Assembly (NCBI GenBank): GCA_022072255.1
Contig: JAJVHZ010000076.1
Coordinates: 1 to 64,000, forward strand
DNA from: Gammaproteobacteria bacterium
Lineage (GTDB): Bacteria > Pseudomonadota > Gammaproteobacteria > JAJPIJ01
DNA length: 64,000 nucleotides
Direction: 5' to 3'
A program made the position numbers and the translations under genes. Under the pieces are notes generated by a model that saw only the letters and a program-made list of their open reading frames with translations, searched no databases and was not told the DNA's origin. Below are positions 5,700 to 60,609 of the stretch, piece by piece. Numbering within the stretch: position 1 is the stretch's first letter; the number at the start of each line of letters is the position of its first letter.

Positions 5700-6415
5700 C
5701 AGGACGCCTCCTTGCGCCCGGCGACCCGCCGCCGCTGGCCCGCGCGGCCGGAGGTCAGATCGACCGAAGCCGCCGGGTCACCCTCTGCGCCGGCCAGGCT
5801 CGACTCCGCATCGCGCTCACCGTGCAGGATCTCCACCATCTTGATCGCCTCCTGCTCCATGTCGACGATCAGCGACTGCACCTTCCCTCGCAGGTAGCGA
5901 TGCATCAGCAGCGCCGGTATCGCGACCGTGAGGCCCGCCGCCGTCGTGATCAGCGCCTGGCCAATGCCGGCCGACAGCTCCTGGGGATTGCCGGCGCCGT
6001 GCGTGGCGACCGCACTGAACATCCTGATCATCCCGAAGACCGTGCCCAGCAGCCCGAGCAGCGGAGATACCGCGGCGATGGAGCCCAGCATGTTCAGATA
6101 TCTCTCGAGTTCGTGCGCGACGTGGCGCCCGACCTCCTCGATCGACTCCTTCATCACGGCGCGGTCGTACTTCAAGTTGACCAGGCCGGCGGCCAGCACG
6201 CGGCCGAGCGGCGAACTCAGGCGCAAAGCCTGCAGCCGCTTTGCATCGAGCACGCCGCTGCGCGCCCAATGCCATACCTGCTCGACCAGCCCGCGCGGTA
6301 TCACGCGCTTGCGCTGCAGCGTCCAGAGACGCTCCACACTGATCGCCAGCGCGACGATCGAACATATGACGATGGGCCACATGACCCATCCGCCAGCCTT
6401 GATGATCTCGAACAC
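5699..6415 (-). CDS. exbB: ExbB/TolQ-family proton-channel subunit
   Basis: A 238-aa MotA/TolQ/ExbB protein. The first membrane helix is at residues 10-30 (GWVMWPIVICSIVALAISV). A long cytoplasmic loop follows. The paired helices around LGSIAAVSPLLGLLGTVFGM (residues 110-130) and GQALITTAAGLTVAIPALL (151-169) carry the channel-lining Thr/Pro positions typical of the family. It partners with ExbD encoded directly downstream. The C-terminal about 35 residues are extra, polar and Arg-rich and look disordered. Upstream, 93 bp separate it from comEC, enough for its own promoter, though none is obvious. Confidence 0.92.
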   Translation of the reverse strand: MFEIIKAGGWVMWPIVICSIVALAISVERLWTLQRKRVIPRGLVEQVWHWARSGVLDAKRLQALRLSSPLGRVLAAGLVNLKYDRAVMKESIEEVGRHVAHELERYLNMLGSIAAVSPLLGLLGTVFGMIRMFSAVATHGAGNPQELSAGIGQALITTAAGLTVAIPALLMHRYLRGKVQSLIVDMEQEAIKMVEILHGERDAESSLAGAEGDPAASVDLTSGRAGQRRRVAGRKEAS

Positions 6416-6508
6416 GGGCGATCGCTCCCTTCCTGCGCTTGCTGTGCGGCGCTGACCATAGCAAAGGATGCCCCGCAGGAAAAGCCTGGGTCCTCCGCGC
6501 GCGCGGCG

Positions 6509-8791
6509 CTACTCGTTCATCCAGAACCGGCGGTGCGCGCGCCGGTAACCCTCCGCGCCGATGCCGGAGGCCTGCACGCGCAGTGTCACGGCGCCGTCGC
6601 GGTCGGTGCGGAAGATCTCCGCCCGCACTCGGCGATAACGCTCCACGATCGCAGCGGCCGGAAAGCGCCAGCGATTGCGGTAGCCGACCGGGAAGACGAC
6701 GTAGCGCGGCCGAACGGCGGCCAGCAACGGCGCGGTCGAGGAAGTGGTGCTGCCATGGTGCGGCGCCAGCATGATCTCGTGCCGCAGCCGCGCGCCGTGA
6801 CGATTGATGAGACCGCGCTCGGCGTCGGCCTCGATGTCGCCGGTCAGCAGGGCACCGCCACCGCGCCCCCGCACGCTGAGCACGCACGAGGCATCGTTGC
6901 CGTGCCCGACGAAGCCCGCGGGCGGACCCAGCATCCGGAATTCCACGGCATCCCAGGCCCAGGTCAGGCCGTCGCGGCACTGGCGGGCGTCGGGATGAAG
7001 GATCGGCAGCGGCTCGCCCGACAGTACCGTCGCAACCGGCATCTGCGCGAGCACCGAATCCAGGCCGCCGCGATGATCGAAATCGCCATGGCTGACGACC
7101 AGCCGATCGATCGACGCGACGCCGGTATGGCGCAGATAGGGCACGACGACCGCGGCGCCGGCATCGAAGCGATCGCTGAACCCGGGTCCGGTATCGAACA
7201 GCAGCGTCCGCTCATGCGTCTGCACGACCGCGGCCAGCCCCTGGCCGACGTCCAGGACGGTCAACCAGAAATCGCCCGGCGCCGGTCGCGGCGGGGCATG
7301 CAGAAACAGCGGCGCCATCCACGCCAGACCGAGCGCGCGCGCCGGCAGGCCGCGCGGCGCGAGCAACAGCATCGCACCGACGCCCGCGCAGAACGCTACG
7401 ACCGGTGAAGGATGCGGCAGCACCAGCGCGGCCCAGTCGAGGGCCGCCAGGGGCTGCAGGACCCGCCATGCCAGATCGAGCGCCAGGAGCGCCCCGCGCA
7501 GCAGCCAGTATCCGATGAACGGCAGCGGCGCAAGCAGCGCCGTGCCGGCGAGCGTCAGCGGCACCACGACGAAGCTCACCCACGGCACGGCGAGGAGATT
7601 CGCCAGTGGTCCGGCCAGCGGATGCTGCGAGAAAAAGAAGGCGAGCAGCGGCGCCAGACCGATGGACATGGCGACGTGCACGCGCGCGTAGCGCCGCCAC
7701 CATGACGCGTGCCGCCCGTCGCCGCCGCCGTACATCAATATCGCCACCGCCACGAAGGACAACCAGAACCCCACCGTCATGACGGCCATGGGATCGATCA
7801 ACAGCACGGCGGCCAGCGCCTGCGTCAGCGTATCGAAAGGCCGTGCCCGCCGACTGCGCCACAGCGACAGCGCGACCGCGGTGATCATGATCAGCGTGCG
7901 CTGGGCCGGCACCTCGAACCCGGCAAGCGCGCAGTACGCGGCCGCCGCGATCACCGCGCAGAGCGAACCCACGCGCTGTGCCGGGATCCACAGCACCGTA
8001 TACGCCGGCAGCGACCAGAGCCAGCGGCCAAGAAGGTATCCGAAGGCGGCGATGAGGCCGATGTGCAGGCCCGATATGGCGATGAGATGTCCGGTGTTGG
8101 TACGGGAGAAGACCCGCCATTGCCGCTGATCGATACCCTCGCGCGCGCCGATGGCCAGGGCCATGATGACGCCGGACAGCGGCTCCCCGCCGATCGCCTC
8201 CTGCAGTCGCTCGCGCAGCACCGCGCGCAGCGTGTCCACGGGCGCCGCCTCCCGCCCGAGCCGCACCCTCCGGCCCTCCGCCACGACGTAGCCGGTGGCA
8301 CGAATGCGCTGCTGGAACAGCCAGGCCTCGTAATCGAAGCCGCCCGGATTGCTGAACCCATGCGTGCGCTTGAGGCGCACGTGCAGACGCCAGCGTTCCC
8401 CGGGGGCGAGCACGGGCGGAGAATCGGCCCGCCAGTCCAGCCGTACGGTGCCGCAGCAGTTCCATCGCTTCGCGCCGAGTTCCAGGTCATCGATCCGGAA
8501 CTGGAAGCGGATGCGATCGGCATACCGCTCGGGCAGATCCGCCACGGCGCCGGTGATCACGACGGTCTGTCCTTCCAACTGCGGCGGCAGGGCGTCGGCG
8601 AGCACCAGCGAGGCGCGCCACAACGTCCAGAGCGCACCGGCGACGAACAGGGCGGGCAATCGCAGGCCCGGCCATCGCAGCGCGAGCAGTACGACCGCTG
8701 GCAGCAGCCAGCAATAACGCGTGTCCGGCAATGCTGCCGGCCATTGCGCGGCGAGTACGCCGAGCGCGAAGGCGATCGTCCCTGAACGCAT
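6509..8791 (-). CDS. comEC: ComEC/Rec2 DNA-uptake channel
   Basis: A 760-aa inner-membrane channel for single-stranded DNA in natural transformation. The layout is N-terminal helices plus a DUF4131 OB-like domain (about 1-190), the hydrophobic Competence domain (about 200-470), and a C-terminal metallo-beta-lactamase-like domain from about residue 510 (VLDVGQGLAAVV). The metal motif HGDFDHRGG and the later HHGS are present, so the nuclease-like domain may be active. The length matches full-size Gram-negative ComEC. No other competence gene is nearby; the position between lol and exb genes is the usual gammaproteobacterial one. Start ATG 8791. Confidence 0.93.
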   Translation of the reverse strand: MRSGTIAFALGVLAAQWPAALPDTRYCWLLPAVVLLALRWPGLRLPALFVAGALWTLWRASLVLADALPPQLEGQTVVITGAVADLPERYADRIRFQFRIDDLELGAKRWNCCGTVRLDWRADSPPVLAPGERWRLHVRLKRTHGFSNPGGFDYEAWLFQQRIRATGYVVAEGRRVRLGREAAPVDTLRAVLRERLQEAIGGEPLSGVIMALAIGAREGIDQRQWRVFSRTNTGHLIAISGLHIGLIAAFGYLLGRWLWSLPAYTVLWIPAQRVGSLCAVIAAAAYCALAGFEVPAQRTLIMITAVALSLWRSRRARPFDTLTQALAAVLLIDPMAVMTVGFWLSFVAVAILMYGGGDGRHASWWRRYARVHVAMSIGLAPLLAFFFSQHPLAGPLANLLAVPWVSFVVVPLTLAGTALLAPLPFIGYWLLRGALLALDLAWRVLQPLAALDWAALVLPHPSPVVAFCAGVGAMLLLAPRGLPARALGLAWMAPLFLHAPPRPAPGDFWLTVLDVGQGLAAVVQTHERTLLFDTGPGFSDRFDAGAAVVVPYLRHTGVASIDRLVVSHGDFDHRGGLDSVLAQMPVATVLSGEPLPILHPDARQCRDGLTWAWDAVEFRMLGPPAGFVGHGNDASCVLSVRGRGGGALLTGDIEADAERGLINRHGARLRHEIMLAPHHGSTTSSTAPLLAAVRPRYVVFPVGYRNRWRFPAAAIVERYRRVRAEIFRTDRDGAVTLRVQASGIGAEGYRRAHRRFWMNE

Positions 8792-53198: not shown

Positions 53199-56100
53199 CT
53201 AACGCCCCTGGCTGGCGGCCGTGAGGTCCTGCCATTCCCGATCGAGCCGCGCGGCGGACACCGCGGCGGCCGTACCCAGCTCCTGCGCGAACAGCGACAC
53301 CCGGAACTCCTCGAGCAGCCACCGGTACGCCGGTAGCGCCCCTGCCGCGGCGGCTCCCTCCTGCCTGCTGCAGTACTCGGCGTAGCGCCGCAGGTAGGGG
53401 CGAAGCTGATCCGCGCGCTGCCTGTCCCTTGCCGGCTCGCGCACGAGCTTCTCCAGGCGCGCGATCGCCGCCTTCAGATAGCGTGGCAGATGGCGGAACC
53501 GCTCCGGCGGGGTGGCGCTCACGAAGCCCGGATACACCAGCGCCTGCATCTGCGCCCGCACGTCAGCCAGCGTCTCCCGCCAGGCCGGCCGTTCGAGCCC
53601 TGCGAGCCGCTGGCGCAGTTGCTGCGCGCGCTCCAGGCATTCCAGCACCTGAGCGCAGAGTGCACCGGCGGCCGGCACGATCCGGGGCCTGCCCCGTTCG
53701 CGCAGGCGCATGAAATCTTCCTGCCTGGCCGGCATGCCGGCGTCGGCGAGAAACACCTGCTCGAAGACCGCCGCGATGATGTCCTCGCGCAGGGTGTCGG
53801 CCTTGCCGAGGGGGGCGAACAGCAGGCTCATCTTCTGGAAGTCCTGCAGGTTCTGGCGGAGGTATTTGACCTGGGCGTTGAGTTCGAGCATGAACAGACG
53901 CCGCAGCCCCGCGCGGCTCAGAACGCTCGCGCGCGCGGCGGTGTCGACCATGCAGAGCTGCACGGCATCGCCCAGATCCTCGATGGCCGGGTAGCCGGTC
54001 ACCTTCGTGCCCGCGCGCTCCACCACTACCGTGGCCGGCAGATCACCGAAGTCCCAGCGCGTGATCCTCCCGGCCCGCGGCTGCCAGCCCGTGGATTGCG
54101 CGAAGGAGGCGCGCACCGATCCGCCCAGCCGCCGTTGCAGTTCCTCGAGATCCCGTCCGGCGGCCAGCACGCGCCCCGTTTCGTCCAGCACACGAAACCG
54201 CATCACGAGATGCTCCGGCAGCACCTCGTTGCGGAAATCCGCCGCACTCAGCCTGAGCCCCGCGGTCTCCCCGAGATGGCGCGCGAGCCCCGCGCTCAGG
54301 TTGCCGGCGCGGAACGGCATCCTTTCCAGGCAGCGGTCGATGGACTGCGGTATCGGCACCAGCGCTCGGCGCTGCGTCTTCGGCAACGAGCGCAGCAGCA
54401 GCCCGACCTTCTCCTTGATGAGCCCCGGCACCAGCCACTCGAACGGCTCCGGCGGGAGCTGCGTCAAGGCGAGCATGGGCACACTCACCGTCACTCCGTC
54501 CTCCTCGTGGCCAGGCTCGAAGCGGTACGAAAGGACCAGATCCAGCGCGCCGACGCGCAGGCGATCAGGGAACAGCCCGGCGGTTACCGGCTCACCGCGC
54601 AGGAGATACTCGCGCGGGATCAGCAGCAGATCCGGGTCGGCGCGCTCCGCCTCCCTCAGCCACTGCTCGAAGGTGCGGCGCTCGCGGACGTTCTCGGGGA
54701 TGCGCTGGTCGTAGAAATCGAAGATGGCCTGCTCGTCGGCGAGGATGTCCAGCCGGCGCGCCTTGTGCTCGAACACGCGCAGTTCCTCGAACAGCGCCCG
54801 GTTGCGGGCGAAGAACTTCGCTTCGGTGTCGAACTCGCCGTTCACCAGCGCCTCGCGGATGAAGATATCGCGCGCCTCGGCAGGATTGATCCGCCCGAAG
54901 TCCACTCTCCGCCCGCTGGCGATCGTCAGGCCGAGCAACGTCGATCTCTCGTAGGCGCTGACGCGGCCGGCGCGGCGCTCCCAGTGCGGATCGCTGTGAC
55001 TGCGCTTCACGAGATGCGCGCCGACCCGCTCGATCCACTCCGGTTCCACGGCCGCCACGTTGCGTGCGTACAGCCGGGAGGTCTCCACGATCTGGGCGGC
55101 CACGAACCACTTGGGCCGTCGCCGGAACTGCGCGGAGCCCGGGAAGATGGCCGGCTTGATGCCGCGCGTCCCGAGGTACTCGCTGGCGTCGGTGCGGAAT
55201 GCGACCTGGCTGAGATATCCCGCCAGCAGGGCGCGGTGCACGGCTGCGTATTCCGCCGGCATCGCGTTGCAGCGGTACCCGAGCCCGGACGCCAGCTCGC
55301 GCAGCTGATCCCAGGTGTCGCGCCACTCGCGCACGCGCGCCGGCGAGACGTAATGCTCGCGGCACCACTGCGCGAGCCGCTTCTTCGACAGCGTGCGCGC
55401 CTGCGCCTCGTGGGCATTCCAGAAATTGACGTACCAGAGAAAATCGGAGCGTTCGTCGTTGAAGACCGCCTGGGCCGCGGCGGCCGCCGCACGCGCGTCG
55501 AGCGGGAACTCACGCGGGTCCTGGATCCCGAGGACGGCGGCGATGATCAGCAGTTCGGCGAGACAGTGGCCTTCATGACCGGCGACGATCAGCCTGCCGA
55601 TACGCGGATCCACCGGCAGGCGCGCCAGCGCGCGGCCGAGCGCGGTGAGCGTTCGCGACTCGTCGACGGCGCCCAGCTCGTAGAGCAGTGTGTAGGCATC
55701 GTTGATGTAGCGCCCCTCCGGCGGGTCCAGAAAGGGGAACTCGTCGACCTCACCGAACCCGAGCGATTCCAGCTGCAGGATGACGGCGGCAAGGTTGGTG
55801 CGCCGGATCTCCGGATCGGTATGGGCGGGCCGGCTGGAGTGATCCTCTTCGCTGTACAGGCGTATGCACACGCCCCGGGCGGTGCGCCCACAGCGGCCCG
55901 CGCGCTGGTTGGCGGAGGACTGCGAGATGCGCTCGATCGGCAGGCGCTGCACCTTGGTGCGCGGACTGTAGCGGCTCACACGGGCGAGTCCGGTGTCGAC
56001 GACGTAGCGCACGCCGGGTACGGTGAGCGAGGTCTCGGCGACGTTGGTGGCGAGCACGATGTGGCGGCGCGGATGCGGTTCGAAGATGCGCTGCTGCTCG

Positions 56101-57080
56101 GCGGCCGTGAGCCGCGCGTAAAGCGGCAGGATCTCCGTGTCGCGGAGCCGCTCCCGGCCGAGCGCCTCGGCGGCGTCGCGGATCTCCCGCTCCCCCGGAA
56201 GAAACACCAGGACGTCGCCGCGGTCGATGCGCGAGAGTTCACCCACCGCCTCGACGACGGCTGCGATGACGTCGACCTCCTCGGCCTCCTCGTCCTGCAG
56301 CGGCGGCCGGTAGCGTATCTCGACCGGGTAGGTGCGCCCGGAGACCTCGATGATCGGCGCGCCGCCGAAATGGCGCGAAAATTTCTCCGGGTCGATGGTG
56401 GCGGAGGTGATGATGACCTTCATGTCGGGCCGCTTCGGCAGCAGCGACTTGAGATACCCGAGCAGAAAGTCGATGTTCAGGCTGCGCTCGTGGGCCTCGT
56501 CGATGATGAGCGTGTCGTAGGCCTCCAGACGGCGATCGGCCCGGGTCTCGGCGAGCAGGATGCCGTCGGTCATGAGCTTGACGTAGGTGTTCTCGCCGAT
56601 CTGCTCGCTGAAGCGCACCTTGTAGCCGACCGCCGCGCCCACCGCGCTGCCCAACTCAGCGGCGATCCGCGCGGCCAGCGTGCGCGCGGCGATGCGGCGC
56701 GGCTGGGTGTGCCCGATGAGACCCCGGATGCCGCGGCCGAGCGACAGGCAGATCTTCGGCAACTGGGTGGACTTGCCCGAGCCGGTCTCCCCGCAGACGA
56801 CGACCACCGGGTGGGCCGCGATGGCGCGCGCGATCTCGTCGCGGCGGGCGCATACCGGCAAATCCTCCGTGTAGCCCGGCACCGGGCACATCTCCGCGCG
56901 CCGTTGCAGCCGCTCGCGGGCACGCGCGAGCCGGGCCTCGAATTCGTCCGCCAGCGGCAGGCCCTCCGGGCGCCCGCGCCGTTGCCGCAGGCGATGCCAA
57001 AGCCGCTGCAGCGCGCGCCGGTCCGCCGGCATACAATCTGCCAGCGCGGCGTTGAGCTCCGCGCGGGTATGGAGGTTCAT
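53199..57080 (-). CDS. hrpA: ATP-dependent RNA helicase HrpA
   Basis: A 1293-aa DEAH-box helicase, close to the 1300 aa of E. coli HrpA. Motif I is CGETGSGKSTQLPK near residue 93, the DEAH box IIDEAHERS, motif III ITSATIDPEKFSRHF, and motif VI SQSSANQRAGRCGRTARG. The C-terminal HA2, OB-fold and DUF3418 regions follow. It acts on mRNA and collided ribosomes. ATG 57080 (NLHTRAEL) is preferred; a TTG start at 57128 would add 16 residues without a better ribosome-binding site. It is a single gene, convergent with the amidotransferase. Confidence 0.95.
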   Translation of the reverse strand: MNLHTRAELNAALADCMPADRRALQRLWHRLRQRRGRPEGLPLADEFEARLARARERLQRRAEMCPVPGYTEDLPVCARRDEIARAIAAHPVVVVCGETGSGKSTQLPKICLSLGRGIRGLIGHTQPRRIAARTLAARIAAELGSAVGAAVGYKVRFSEQIGENTYVKLMTDGILLAETRADRRLEAYDTLIIDEAHERSLNIDFLLGYLKSLLPKRPDMKVIITSATIDPEKFSRHFGGAPIIEVSGRTYPVEIRYRPPLQDEEAEEVDVIAAVVEAVGELSRIDRGDVLVFLPGEREIRDAAEALGRERLRDTEILPLYARLTAAEQQRIFEPHPRRHIVLATNVAETSLTVPGVRYVVDTGLARVSRYSPRTKVQRLPIERISQSSANQRAGRCGRTARGVCIRLYSEEDHSSRPAHTDPEIRRTNLAAVILQLESLGFGEVDEFPFLDPPEGRYINDAYTLLYELGAVDESRTLTALGRALARLPVDPRIGRLIVAGHEGHCLAELLIIAAVLGIQDPREFPLDARAAAAAAQAVFNDERSDFLWYVNFWNAHEAQARTLSKKRLAQWCREHYVSPARVREWRDTWDQLRELASGLGYRCNAMPAEYAAVHRALLAGYLSQVAFRTDASEYLGTRGIKPAIFPGSAQFRRRPKWFVAAQIVETSRLYARNVAAVEPEWIERVGAHLVKRSHSDPHWERRAGRVSAYERSTLLGLTIASGRRVDFGRINPAEARDIFIREALVNGEFDTEAKFFARNRALFEELRVFEHKARRLDILADEQAIFDFYDQRIPENVRERRTFEQWLREAERADPDLLLIPREYLLRGEPVTAGLFPDRLRVGALDLVLSYRFEPGHEEDGVTVSVPMLALTQLPPEPFEWLVPGLIKEKVGLLLRSLPKTQRRALVPIPQSIDRCLERMPFRAGNLSAGLARHLGETAGLRLSAADFRNEVLPEHLVMRFRVLDETGRVLAAGRDLEELQRRLGGSVRASFAQSTGWQPRAGRITRWDFGDLPATVVVERAGTKVTGYPAIEDLGDAVQLCMVDTAARASVLSRAGLRRLFMLELNAQVKYLRQNLQDFQKMSLLFAPLGKADTLREDIIAAVFEQVFLADAGMPARQEDFMRLRERGRPRIVPAAGALCAQVLECLERAQQLRQRLAGLERPAWRETLADVRAQMQALVYPGFVSATPPERFRHLPRYLKAAIARLEKLVREPARDRQRADQLRPYLRRYAEYCSRQEGAAAAGALPAYRWLLEEFRVSLFAQELGTAAAVSAARLDREWQDLTAASQGR

Positions 57081-57252
57081 GGCCAGGGGCTCAGCCTCGG
57101 GGCAGACCGGCGGGGGAAGTTTTGTCAATTCTTAGGTTTGCTGCTAGCATTACCATGTAACCAACTGATAGCATTCGATATAGCGTGTGCGGAGCACGGA
57201 AGCGGGCGGTGCAGGCGCGCGGCCGGCAGGAGCGGCAGGGTCAGTCCAACCA

Positions 57253-57271
57253 CGGGTCAGGTGCTGACCCG
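57253..57271. promoter_or_regulatory. 19-bp palindrome upstream of the PP2C-FGE gene
   Basis: CGGGTCAG (57253-57260) and CTGACCCG (57264-57271) are exact inverses around GTG, 32 bp before the gene start. A short direct repeat ACAGACGGG (57272-57280 and 57284-57292) follows. This could be an operator or an early mRNA hairpin. An AT-rich stretch near 57125-57185 likely holds the promoter. Confidence 0.45.
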
Positions 57272-57303
57272 ACAGACGGGTAACAGACGGGCGACGGTTC
57301 AAC

Positions 57304-59241
57304 ATGGCGCAGACGCTAGACATCTCCGGCTCGCAGATCAACGGGGCACGCGATTATCAGGAAGATGCATTTCTGATCACAACCATCGGCGGCAGCGACG
57401 ACAAGGATTCCGCGTCCCTGGTCATCGTCGCCGACGGCATGGGTGGACACGCAGCCGGCAACGTCGCCAGCAACATGGCGGTGCAGACCTTCAACAAGCA
57501 CGTCACCTCTCACTTCCCCACCACCGACGTAACGGCGATGCTGCAGGCGGCCGTGCGCGCCGCCAACGCCTCGATCACCGATACGGTGCGCGAGACACCG
57601 GCGCTGCGCGGGATGGGCTGCACACTGGTCGCCGCACTGGTCGTAGACCAGAAACTTTTCTGGATAAGCGTCGGCGACAGTCATCTTTACCTGCTGCGCA
57701 GCGGCACGCTGGAGAAGAAGAACGTCTGCCACAGCTACGGCGGGTTTCTCGATCGCATGGCCGCAGCCGGCCGGCCGGTGGAGCCGGAGGCGGGCTTTTC
57801 CCGCAACATGCTCATGAGTGCGCTCTCCGGCGACGAGATCGCCGAGGTCGACTGCCCGGACGAACCGTACGTGCTGCAGCCCGGCGATCGGCTCATCATG
57901 TCCACCGACGGCCTCGATTCGCTGAATGCGGCCAAGATTCTCTCGTACTCCGACGCCGCCAGGGGCGCGCGCGACTTCGTGTCGGTGCTCCTCAAGGGTG
58001 TCGAGGAAGCCGCGATCCCCCGACAGGACAACACCACGGTCGTGGTCATCGACCTGCCCGGGCGCGGCGAGCGCACCGCCAACGGCAAGCCGGTGCTGAA
58101 GGACGTCGTCGCCGAGGGCCGGGCCGTGGGACGGGCGCCGAGCACCGTCAGCGGCCCCGCCGAGTTCCACAGCGCGCCGGTTCCCGAACCCGCCCCCGCG
58201 CCGCGCCCGGTCCGGCGCGCGCCCAGGCGCCGCGATCCGCGCGACGCCTACGTGCGCCCCGGCCGCTGGCTGCGGCTATTGCTGCTGCTGGCGCTGGCGG
58301 GCGGCGCCGTCGCCGCCTATCTGTATCGGGAACAGATCCTGGCCAACCCGACCGTGGCCACCCTGCTCGCCAGCGTGAGTGCGCCGAACTCCACGACCGT
58401 CATACCGGCACCGGAATCCGAACCGGAGCCGCAGGAGCCGGCGCCCGCACCGGCCCTCACCGTGCCGGAGCCGACCGCCGTCCCCGAAGCCGCGCCCGAG
58501 CCGGAACCCGCGGTCGCGACCACGCCGCCTCCACCGCCACCGATCGAGGAATTCCGCGACGGCAACGGCCCGCCGATGGTGTGGGTTCAGGGCGGCAGCT
58601 TCGAGATGGGCAGCGCGGGCAGCTGGCCGGAGCCGAGCGAGCACCCGCGTCACTCCGTCACCCTGCGCCGGTTCGGGATCGGCCGCACCGAGGTCACCAA
58701 TGCCCAGTACGCGCAGTTCCGACAGCCGCCGAACCCCTTTGGCATGGATGACTCCGCCCCCGTCTCCGGGATCAGCTGGAACGATGCGGTGGCTTATACC
58801 CGCTGGCTGTCGGCGCAGACGGGCAAGACCTACCGCCTGGCGACCGAGGCGGAGTGGGAATACGCGGCCGCGGCCGGAACCGATCCGCAGTACTGGTACT
58901 GGGGCCACACACCACAGCCGGGCATGGCGCAATGTTTCGGGTGCTCGCCGGACCTGAAGCCGGTCAAACCCGTGGACGTGGGCAGTTTCGCCCCGAACGC
59001 CTTCGGGCTGTACGACACCGCCGGCAACGTCGCGGAATGGGTGCAGGACTGCTATCTGCCGAACTACGATGGCGCGCCCGCCGACGGCAGCGCGCGTGAG
59101 GCCGGCGAGTGCGCCGATCGCGTCGTACGTGGCGGCAGCTATGACGTGCCGCCGAAATCGATACGTGCCGCCCGTCGCGACAAGTGGCCGGCGGCGCGCG
59201 GGCATGAAAGCATCGGGTTCCGCGTCGTTCGCGAGGAGTAG
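57304..59241 (+). CDS. PP2C phosphatase fused to a periplasmic FGE-sulfatase-like domain
   Basis: A 645-aa protein. Residues 1-250 are a PP2C Ser/Thr phosphatase with DYQED, ADGMGGHAAG (Asp44), ISVGDSHLYLL, MSTDGLDSL (Asp202) and RQDNTTVVV (Asp242), so all metal ligands are present. A Pro-rich basic linker leads to one membrane helix (322-341). A long Pro/Glu/Ala linker (365-418) and an FGE-sulfatase/SUMF1-like domain (424-645) follow, with MVWVQGGSFEMGS, EVTNAQYAQF, ATEAEWEYAA and VVRGGSYDVPP. The catalytic Cys pair of true formylglycine enzymes is absent (RGGSYDVPPKSIRAARRDKW). The phosphatase should be cytoplasmic and the FGE-like part periplasmic, perhaps a ligand sensor. No kinase gene is nearby. 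Confidence 0.9.
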   Translation: MAQTLDISGSQINGARDYQEDAFLITTIGGSDDKDSASLVIVADGMGGHAAGNVASNMAVQTFNKHVTSHFPTTDVTAMLQAAVRAANASITDTVRETPALRGMGCTLVAALVVDQKLFWISVGDSHLYLLRSGTLEKKNVCHSYGGFLDRMAAAGRPVEPEAGFSRNMLMSALSGDEIAEVDCPDEPYVLQPGDRLIMSTDGLDSLNAAKILSYSDAARGARDFVSVLLKGVEEAAIPRQDNTTVVVIDLPGRGERTANGKPVLKDVVAEGRAVGRAPSTVSGPAEFHSAPVPEPAPAPRPVRRAPRRRDPRDAYVRPGRWLRLLLLLALAGGAVAAYLYREQILANPTVATLLASVSAPNSTTVIPAPESEPEPQEPAPAPALTVPEPTAVPEAAPEPEPAVATTPPPPPPIEEFRDGNGPPMVWVQGGSFEMGSAGSWPEPSEHPRHSVTLRRFGIGRTEVTNAQYAQFRQPPNPFGMDDSAPVSGISWNDAVAYTRWLSAQTGKTYRLATEAEWEYAAAAGTDPQYWYWGHTPQPGMAQCFGCSPDLKPVKPVDVGSFAPNAFGLYDTAGNVAEWVQDCYLPNYDGAPADGSAREAGECADRVVRGGSYDVPPKSIRAARRDKWPAARGHESIGFRVVREE

Positions 59242-59254
59242 CGAACGCCCGTAC

Positions 59255-59548
59255 TCACCCCTCGCCGCCGCGATCGCTGTGGCCGAGTTCCATCGCCGGG
59301 GCGATGCGGTCGCGGATGAGCTGCTTGAGCTCCCTGGACTCCGGGAAGCGTCCCTCGTGCTGCCGCGAGAACAGCAGCTCGCCATCGAGGTAGACCTCGA
59401 ACACGCCGCCGGTGCCGGGCACCAGCGCGAGTTCACCCAGCATCTCGCCGAAGGTCATCAGGAGTTCCTGCGCCAGCCAGCTCGCGCGCAGGATGAAACG
59501 GCACCGGGTGCAGTATCTGATCGCCACGCGTGGGCCCTGTCCGTGCAT
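59255..59548 (-). CDS. SelT/SelW/SelH-family thioredoxin-like protein
   Basis: A 97-aa Rdx-family protein. The CxxC motif is in VAIRYCTRCRFILRASWLAQ at the N-terminus; both positions are Cys, with no selenocysteine. GTGGVFEVYLDGELLFSR and FPESRELKQLIRDRI complete the fold. It may be a redox or selenium-handling protein; the partner is unknown. ATG 59548 has a GGAGG site; the upstream extension to 59626 is rejected as it has poor coding content. It is flanked by convergent and divergent genes. Confidence 0.9.
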   Translation of the reverse strand: MHGQGPRVAIRYCTRCRFILRASWLAQELLMTFGEMLGELALVPGTGGVFEVYLDGELLFSRQHEGRFPESRELKQLIRDRIAPAMELGHSDRGGEG

Positions 59549-59634
59549 CGCCTGTGCCTCCGCCCGGCGCTGTCCGCCGCTCCGGAGAGCGACGATGGCA
59601 TGACCCACCGGCGGTGACAAGGGCATAAGAGAAA

Positions 59635-60609
59635 ATGGAAAGCGTCGTCAATTGCGCCATCTACTCCCCGCAGGGCAGACGCGAACGCGACTGCACGGTC
59701 GAGGAGATCAGCGACGTCCTGCCGACGGCCGAGGGGTTCGTCTGGATCGGCCTGCACGAGCCCGGCCAGGCGCTGCTGCGCAAGATCCAGGAGGAGTTCG
59801 CCCTGCATGAGCTCGCCATCGAGGACGCCCACCGCGCCCATCAACGCGCCAAGCTCGAAGCCTACGGCGACGGTCTTTTCATCGTCTTGAAGACCGCGCA
59901 GTTCCGGTCCGGCGAACTGCATTTCGGCGAGACCCATCTTTTTCTCGGCCGCCACTACCTCATCACCGTCCGGCACGGCGCGTCCAGCGCCTACACCGAC
60001 GTGCGCGCCCGCTGCGAGGAGCAGCCCGCGCTCCTGCGCCACGGGTCCTCCTTCGCGCTGTACGCGATCATGGACCGCATCGTTGACAACTACGCGCCGG
60101 TCGTCGACGGCTTCGAGGAGGAGCTCGACAACATCGAGCATCTGGTGTTCGAGGGTTCGTTCAATCGCGCCACGCTGCTGCGCCTGTATCATCTCAGGCG
60201 CGCGCTGGTCGAGCTGCGGCTGGCGGTAGTGCCGGTCATCGAGATCTGCAACCAGCTCATACGGCTGCACGCCAATCTGGTGCCCGACGCTGTGCGCCCC
60301 TACTTCCGCGACATCGCCGACCACGCCACACGCATCAACGAGGCGATCGACACCATGCGCGAGACGCTGACCGGCGCCATGGACGTCAACATCGCCATGG
60401 TGACGATACGCCAGAACGATGTCGTGAAGCGTCTGGCCGGCTGGGCAGGGATCCTGGCATTGCCGACGCTCGTGGCCAGCGTCTACGGCATGAACTTCGA
60501 CTTCATGCCGGAGCTCAGGTGGCGCTGGGGCTATCCCCTGGTACTGGCGCTGACCCTCGGCGCCTGTCTCCTGCTGTACCGGCGCCTGCGCCGCGCCGGC
60601 TGGATCTGA
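59635..60609 (+). CDS. corA: CorA-family magnesium/cobalt transporter
   Basis: A 324-aa CorA protein. The large N-terminal cytoplasmic domain is followed by a long helix and two C-terminal membrane helices. The selectivity signature is SVYGMNFDFMPEL (about 282-294), containing the GMN motif. The family stalk shows EELDNIEHLVF. Other details match: five-fold channel, Mg2+ uptake. ATG 59635 follows AAGAGAAA. It converges with the CbiM-like gene, with only 3 bp between stops. Confidence 0.93.
   Translation: MESVVNCAIYSPQGRRERDCTVEEISDVLPTAEGFVWIGLHEPGQALLRKIQEEFALHELAIEDAHRAHQRAKLEAYGDGLFIVLKTAQFRSGELHFGETHLFLGRHYLITVRHGASSAYTDVRARCEEQPALLRHGSSFALYAIMDRIVDNYAPVVDGFEEELDNIEHLVFEGSFNRATLLRLYHLRRALVELRLAVVPVIEICNQLIRLHANLVPDAVRPYFRDIADHATRINEAIDTMRETLTGAMDVNIAMVTIRQNDVVKRLAGWAGILALPTLVASVYGMNFDFMPELRWRWGYPLVLALTLGACLLLYRRLRRAGWI

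Follow-up and report, generated by a model that had tools for sequence, protein, structure and literature searches.

Organization of the locus and of the fusion protein

The window, a 64,000-nucleotide stretch of gammaproteobacterial DNA, contains one intact open frame that joins a PP2C phosphatase to an FGE-like domain (Table 1). The original prediction described the product as a PP2C domain, a transmembrane helix, a Pro-rich spacer and an FGE-like domain, and this order is confirmed by Pfam, hydropathy, AlphaFold and Foldseek. An overlapping frame of 1753 aa (53490–58751, forward strand) runs mostly antisense to the neighbouring helicase gene and is probably a chance frame in GC-rich DNA.

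Table 1. Features of the fusion locus, its neighbours and the unlinked candidate kinase
Feature	Position	Strand	Description
HrpA-type DEAH helicase with DUF3418	53199..57128	-	Divergent neighbour; not part of the system
PP2C-TM-FGE fusion gene	57304..59241	+	645 aa; ATG start, stop included
PP2C (PPM) phosphatase domain	57316..58059	+	Residues 5-252; metal- and phosphate-binding residues invariant in 44 homologues
Disordered Pro/Arg-rich linker	58060..58263	+	Residues 253-320; AlphaFold pLDDT <50; sequence unconserved; putatively cytoplasmic
Single transmembrane helix	58264..58344	+	Residues 321-347, hydrophobic core 322-341
Pro/Glu-rich linker	58345..58551	+	Residues 348-416; from AlphaFold; sequence unconserved; putatively external
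FGE-like domain (PF03781, C-type-lectin-type fold)	58552..59238	+	Residues 417-645; catalytic cysteine pair missing; Cys 544, 547, 583 and 603 invariant
Rdx family protein	59255..59626	-	Convergent neighbour; not part of the system
CorA-like Mg2+ transporter	59635..60609	+	Neighbour; not part of the system
Candidate partner kinase	G000:C30:14837-16231		Kinase, TM, periplasmic helical domain; window genome

PF07228, PF13672 and PF03781 had been named as the Pfam families to look for. In the N-terminal part, PF13672 (PP2C_2) is matched at 5e-13 (49.5 bits, cut-off 24) and PF00481 at 6.2e-10, while PF07228 (SpoIIE) is only the weakest PP2C-type match at 28.2 bits (cut-off 25). PF03781 (FGE-sulfatase) covers residues 423–643 at 4.3e-54 (184.3 bits, cut-off 23.3). 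Hydropathy finds one membrane helix (residues 322–341) with Arg-rich sequence N-terminal of it, and the AlphaFold model of the full protein (mean pLDDT 70) has a helix at residues 321–347 and places disordered linkers at residues 254–318 and 357–410 on either side of it. Foldseek matches the N-terminal end to the PP2Cs PstP and tPphA, and the C-terminal end to PvdO/FGE structures.

The PPM fold and a Pfam match above cut-off place the N-terminal part among the PP2C/PPM phosphatases. As originally predicted, its metal-binding aspartates are all present, as is the phosphate-binding arginine; R16, E20, D21, D44, G45, D125, D202 and D242 are identical in all 44 homologues that were aligned end to end. 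This putatively cytoplasmic part is predicted to be active on Ser and Thr.

The C-terminal domain has the FGE-sulfatase fold family's Pfam signature and lacks its copper-binding catalytic cysteine pair, a loss that had also been predicted. The catalytic stretch of Streptomyces coelicolor FGE (2q17/6muj), "GGSYlchDSYCNRYR", aligns to "GGSYDVPPKSIRA" in the fusion, which contains no cysteine. The pair occurs in 0 of the 44 aligned homologues, one of which has an unrelated cysteine a few residues beyond the site. Judged by this test on sequence, the outer domain is not an FGE (SUMF1) enzyme.

Conservation follows the two domains. The PP2C part has a median identity of 60% to the window protein and 50 invariant residues across the 44 homologues, and the FGE-like part 51% and 33, while the sequence of the linkers and helix is unconserved. 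The four invariant cysteines are restricted to the FGE-like domain. These cysteines, the helix, and the Arg-rich sequence before it in the window protein argue for an external, periplasmic position of this domain. In only 25 of the 44 homologues does the net charge drop from one side of the helix to the other, a weak positive-inside signal for the family as a whole, so the family-wide topology leans more on the helix and the cysteines.

It is unlikely, though worth weighing, that the FGE-like domain serves for structure or localisation, for example as a stalk or an outer-membrane or cell-wall scaffold, and that the phosphatase is constitutive at the membrane. The nearest solved relatives include, besides PvdO, the structural FGE-fold proteins PorK/GldK, and the unconserved linkers and helix give no sign of signalling by specific helix packing. 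Against this, the domain is well conserved and stably attached, although a structural role would fit that observation too.

Distribution and genomic context

The fusion is a stable family, found in numerous uncultured Gammaproteobacteria. An intact orthologue, 88% identical, is found in a genome of the same genus, and within the window's order the fusion is encoded by each of the four genomes searched. A genome scan yielded 56 loci. In 20 of them the fusion is a single intact frame; the remainder are broken, cut by a contig end or FGE-only relatives. The original prediction had called for a genome-wide search for similar fusions; in the class sample, the full-length fusion was found in 28 of 274 sampled Gammaproteobacteria genomes from 15 families, in 12 of which at least two sampled genomes carry it.

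Two findings had been named beforehand as fatal to the original prediction: homologues that are split genes, and absence of the helix. Neither was found, since 44 homologues align end to end and a hydrophobic helix segment is present in every one, single in the window protein. That an assembly artefact or frameshift joined two genes is a practically negligible possibility. Two homologues from metagenome-assembled genomes (MAGs), L065 and L076, are indeed broken, but nothing at the window locus supports such a joining, and the same-genus orthologue together with the end-to-end homologues refutes it. Spread by plasmids was also considered and was dropped, as no plasmid record covers 80% of the fusion protein. 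Three loci that carry the fusion family (L054, L066 and L071) come from records titled as Klebsiella pneumoniae MAGs; these titles are probably wrong, because related loci come from other Gammaproteobacteria.

The neighbours of the fusion across 27 loci are housekeeping genes for the helicase, transporters and molybdenum cofactor, with the HrpA-type helicase nearby in 19 loci. A small, deep group of fusions adjoins hisA/hisF-type genes and polA. No kinase was found among the conserved neighbour families translated from the 27 loci, and the 25 Pkinase matches of the window genome all lie on contigs other than the window's own (C3). The search for a partner in the gene neighbourhood was therefore dropped. 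The original observation of no kinase nearby holds for this contig, but the genome is rich in kinases and even encodes a kinase-FGE fusion elsewhere (G000:C51).

A role in type VI secretion, like that of PppA opposing PpkA, was also considered, as PppA matches the PP2C part structurally. TssF, a marker of type VI secretion, was detected in just 1 of the 16 fusion genomes in which it was sought. Its absence from the other 15 largely refutes this role, which the housekeeping neighbours also speak against; it was rejected as very improbable.

An unlinked candidate partner kinase

Hanks kinases are found in all 28 fusion genomes compared to 176 of the 246 others in the class sample. Among fusion genomes reached by locus, Pkinase matches number 4 to 20 per genome, and a candidate type was picked by comparing the genomes with the fewest kinases with the window genome. 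In the resulting candidate (Table 1), Pfam recognises only the kinase domain, and the external part has no domain name. Twenty of these kinases were fetched; all contain the HRD and DFG motifs and a single transmembrane segment near residue 300.

The non-kinase tail of this protein is matched at E<=1e-20 in 21 of 28 fusion genomes and 0 of 246 others (by family, 12 of 15 compared to 0), a line that was set after a score gap between 1e-21 and 1e-17 had been seen. At the preset threshold of 1e-6, the tail is matched in 43 genomes, 22 of which have the fusion. Seven fusion genomes lack the strong match; the search started from the kinase of the window genome itself, and detection drops with distance. 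The association by genome (p=8.5e-26) is descriptive only, as it ignores shared ancestry and the origin of the query, and shared ancestry may inflate the co-occurrence.

This co-occurrence with one membrane-spanning kinase type suggests that the fusion and the kinase, whose genes are unlinked, form a receptor kinase/receptor phosphatase pair. Fusion genomes also encode several other kinases, and those in the window genome that have a C-terminal cNMP domain were considered as partners too.

Rsd/AlgQ is a regulator of sigma-70. By sequence clustering, 12 of the 20 kinase loci have an Rsd/AlgQ gene near the candidate kinase, with two confirmed by Pfam (examples are L261:3242-3745 and L252:4205-4996), and its product is a possible candidate substrate.

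Related systems, module exchange and proposed function

The closest known parallel is Mycobacterium PstP, the partner of PknA/PknB. It has the same order of N-terminal PP2C, single transmembrane helix and C-terminal external domain, as far as the predicted orientation of the fusion holds, and is the best PP2C fold match (1txo, TM-score 0.82–0.84 by target). Two papers present PstP as a membrane-spanning PP2C that acts together with transmembrane kinases (PMC12088040, PMC6213207). The PknB and PstP genes are adjacent (PMC6213207), while the fusion gene is not adjacent to a kinase and its external part is an FGE-like domain.

Kinase-FGE fusions of Microbulbifer and relatives, and that of G000:C51, likewise place an enzyme domain, a transmembrane helix and an FGE-like domain in one chain, and in the Microbulbifer kinases the FGE part groups close to that of the fusion. 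However, these systems put the FGE part on the kinase, and their PP2C is encoded by a separate gene of another PP2C clade, adjacent in Microbulbifer and relatives. The G000:C51 region (1-24501; L151, L152) is a second kinase/PP2C/FGE cluster of the window genome, with several Hanks kinases, the kinase-FGE fusion, a PP2C and an FGE protein encoded separately.

Within the PvdO/FGE (SUMF1) family PF03781, the outer domain matches PvdO at 1e-31, with a Foldseek match as well, and FGE at 1e-22; it differs from that family in lacking the catalytic cysteine pair and in being tethered to a phosphatase. The FGE fold has been proposed as a non-enzymatic recognition domain in DGR targets and TIR/nSTAND conflict proteins (PMC10907252). 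The outer domain resembles such C-type-lectin sensors, matching TvpA (2y3c), while the DGR-target and TIR/nSTAND proteins are effectors or displayed proteins. One TIR-nSTAND1-FGE protein was seen in a Xanthobacteraceae MAG (L102:277-3102).

No description of a PP2C-FGE fusion or of a cNMP-rhodanese-PP2C protein was found in the open literature searched, and the main text of a 2025 survey of PP2C domain architectures does not mention FGE (PMC12088040). By every feature tested the fusion is a PP2C that would, like PstP, oppose transmembrane kinases, in a domain combination not found in that literature.

The class scan also detected the TM-linker-FGE module, at 300–390 bits, on longer proteins. 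These giants of 1300–2030 aa are built as cNMP-cNMP-rhodanese-coiled-coil-TM-FGE, usually without PP2C. In L191, L192 and L078, Pfam finds cNMP-binding, rhodanese and FGE domains, a single helix is predicted before the FGE part, and the long middle resembles coiled coil when judged by eye. Giants occur in 35 sampled genomes, none of which also has the fusion; this count is of high-scoring non-fusion matches tabulated in the class scan, only part of which were examined individually. The probability of such exclusion by chance is 0.02 over all genomes and 7e-5 over cNMP-rhodanese-positive genomes, ignoring ancestry.

In the PP2C tree the fusions form one group (SH-aLRT 99) beside the PP2Cs of genomes G115 and G238 (85), followed by solo PP2Cs, and all of these are far from kinase-adjacent PP2Cs. 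In the FGE tree the fusions again form one group (99), with a giant, L203, nested inside it, so modules may have moved in more than one direction.

It is quite possible, though we lean slightly against it, that the fusion provides the phosphatase of a cNMP-binding/rhodanese/coiled-coil pathway, with the membrane-anchored protein acting on or regulated by cNMP-cNMP-rhodanese(-coiled-coil) proteins and the giants as a fused form of the same machine. An intact 1795-aa chain in G115 (L189:5602-10986), cNMP-cNMP-rhodanese-PP2C-coil-TM-FGE, joins all of these modules, and this is consistent with such a pathway. So are the exclusion between giants and fusions, the solo PP2Cs of the fusion's subfamily in some giant-bearing genomes, the cNMP-domain kinases of the window genome, and the occurrence of cNMP-rhodanese proteins at 1e-60 in 26 of 28 fusion genomes compared to 91 of 246 others (p=7e-9, ancestry ignored). 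However, the complete joining is a single intact chain, as the G238 version is broken by a stop; many genomes without the fusion also have cNMP-rhodanese proteins; and the gene neighbourhood gives no link. In another search, of 31 genomes at a loose threshold, cNMP-rhodanese proteins were found in every one. This pathway would supply a different main partner and is compatible with the receptor-pair reading below.

Two further arrangements were observed. In fusion genomes, cNMP-cNMP-rhodanese proteins whose long tails resemble coiled coil are encoded in divergent pairs (L243:1431-5330 and 5966-8407; L245; L246). In G118, a VWA-domain protein (L194:3516-4511) overlaps or follows a solo PP2C of the fusion's subfamily, with a chemotaxis-like receiver protein close by.

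The fusion is probably best explained as a receptor-type Ser/Thr phosphatase opposing a co-inherited transmembrane receptor kinase. Its cytoplasmic PP2C would strip phosphate from Ser and Thr, one helix would span the inner membrane, and a flexible Pro-rich stalk would hold the catalytically dead FGE-like domain in the periplasm, where binding of a ligand or partner would alter how active or how clustered the phosphatase is. The unlinked Hanks kinase of matching topology would be its likeliest opponent, and the two receptors, with different external domains, would jointly determine how far the kinase itself, shared substrates or both are phosphorylated. Of the original prediction, a transmembrane receptor phosphatase whose external domain is non-catalytic survives as the best-supported reading, while the co-occurring kinase and the module exchange were missing from that picture. 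A more elaborate version is tentative and somewhat doubtful: a split system in which the unlinked kinase and the pseudo-FGE phosphatase read different periplasmic cues antagonistically, and cNMP-rhodanese coiled-coil proteins, sometimes physically joined to it, add a further input.

To our knowledge, few descriptions exist of bacterial transmembrane PP2Cs that carry a structured sensor domain, and phosphatase-side signal control in Hanks signalling is little understood. The present family is stably kept in 15 gammaproteobacterial families of the sample and provides a named candidate kinase, and its module exchange links Ser/Thr phosphorylation to cNMP and rhodanese modules.
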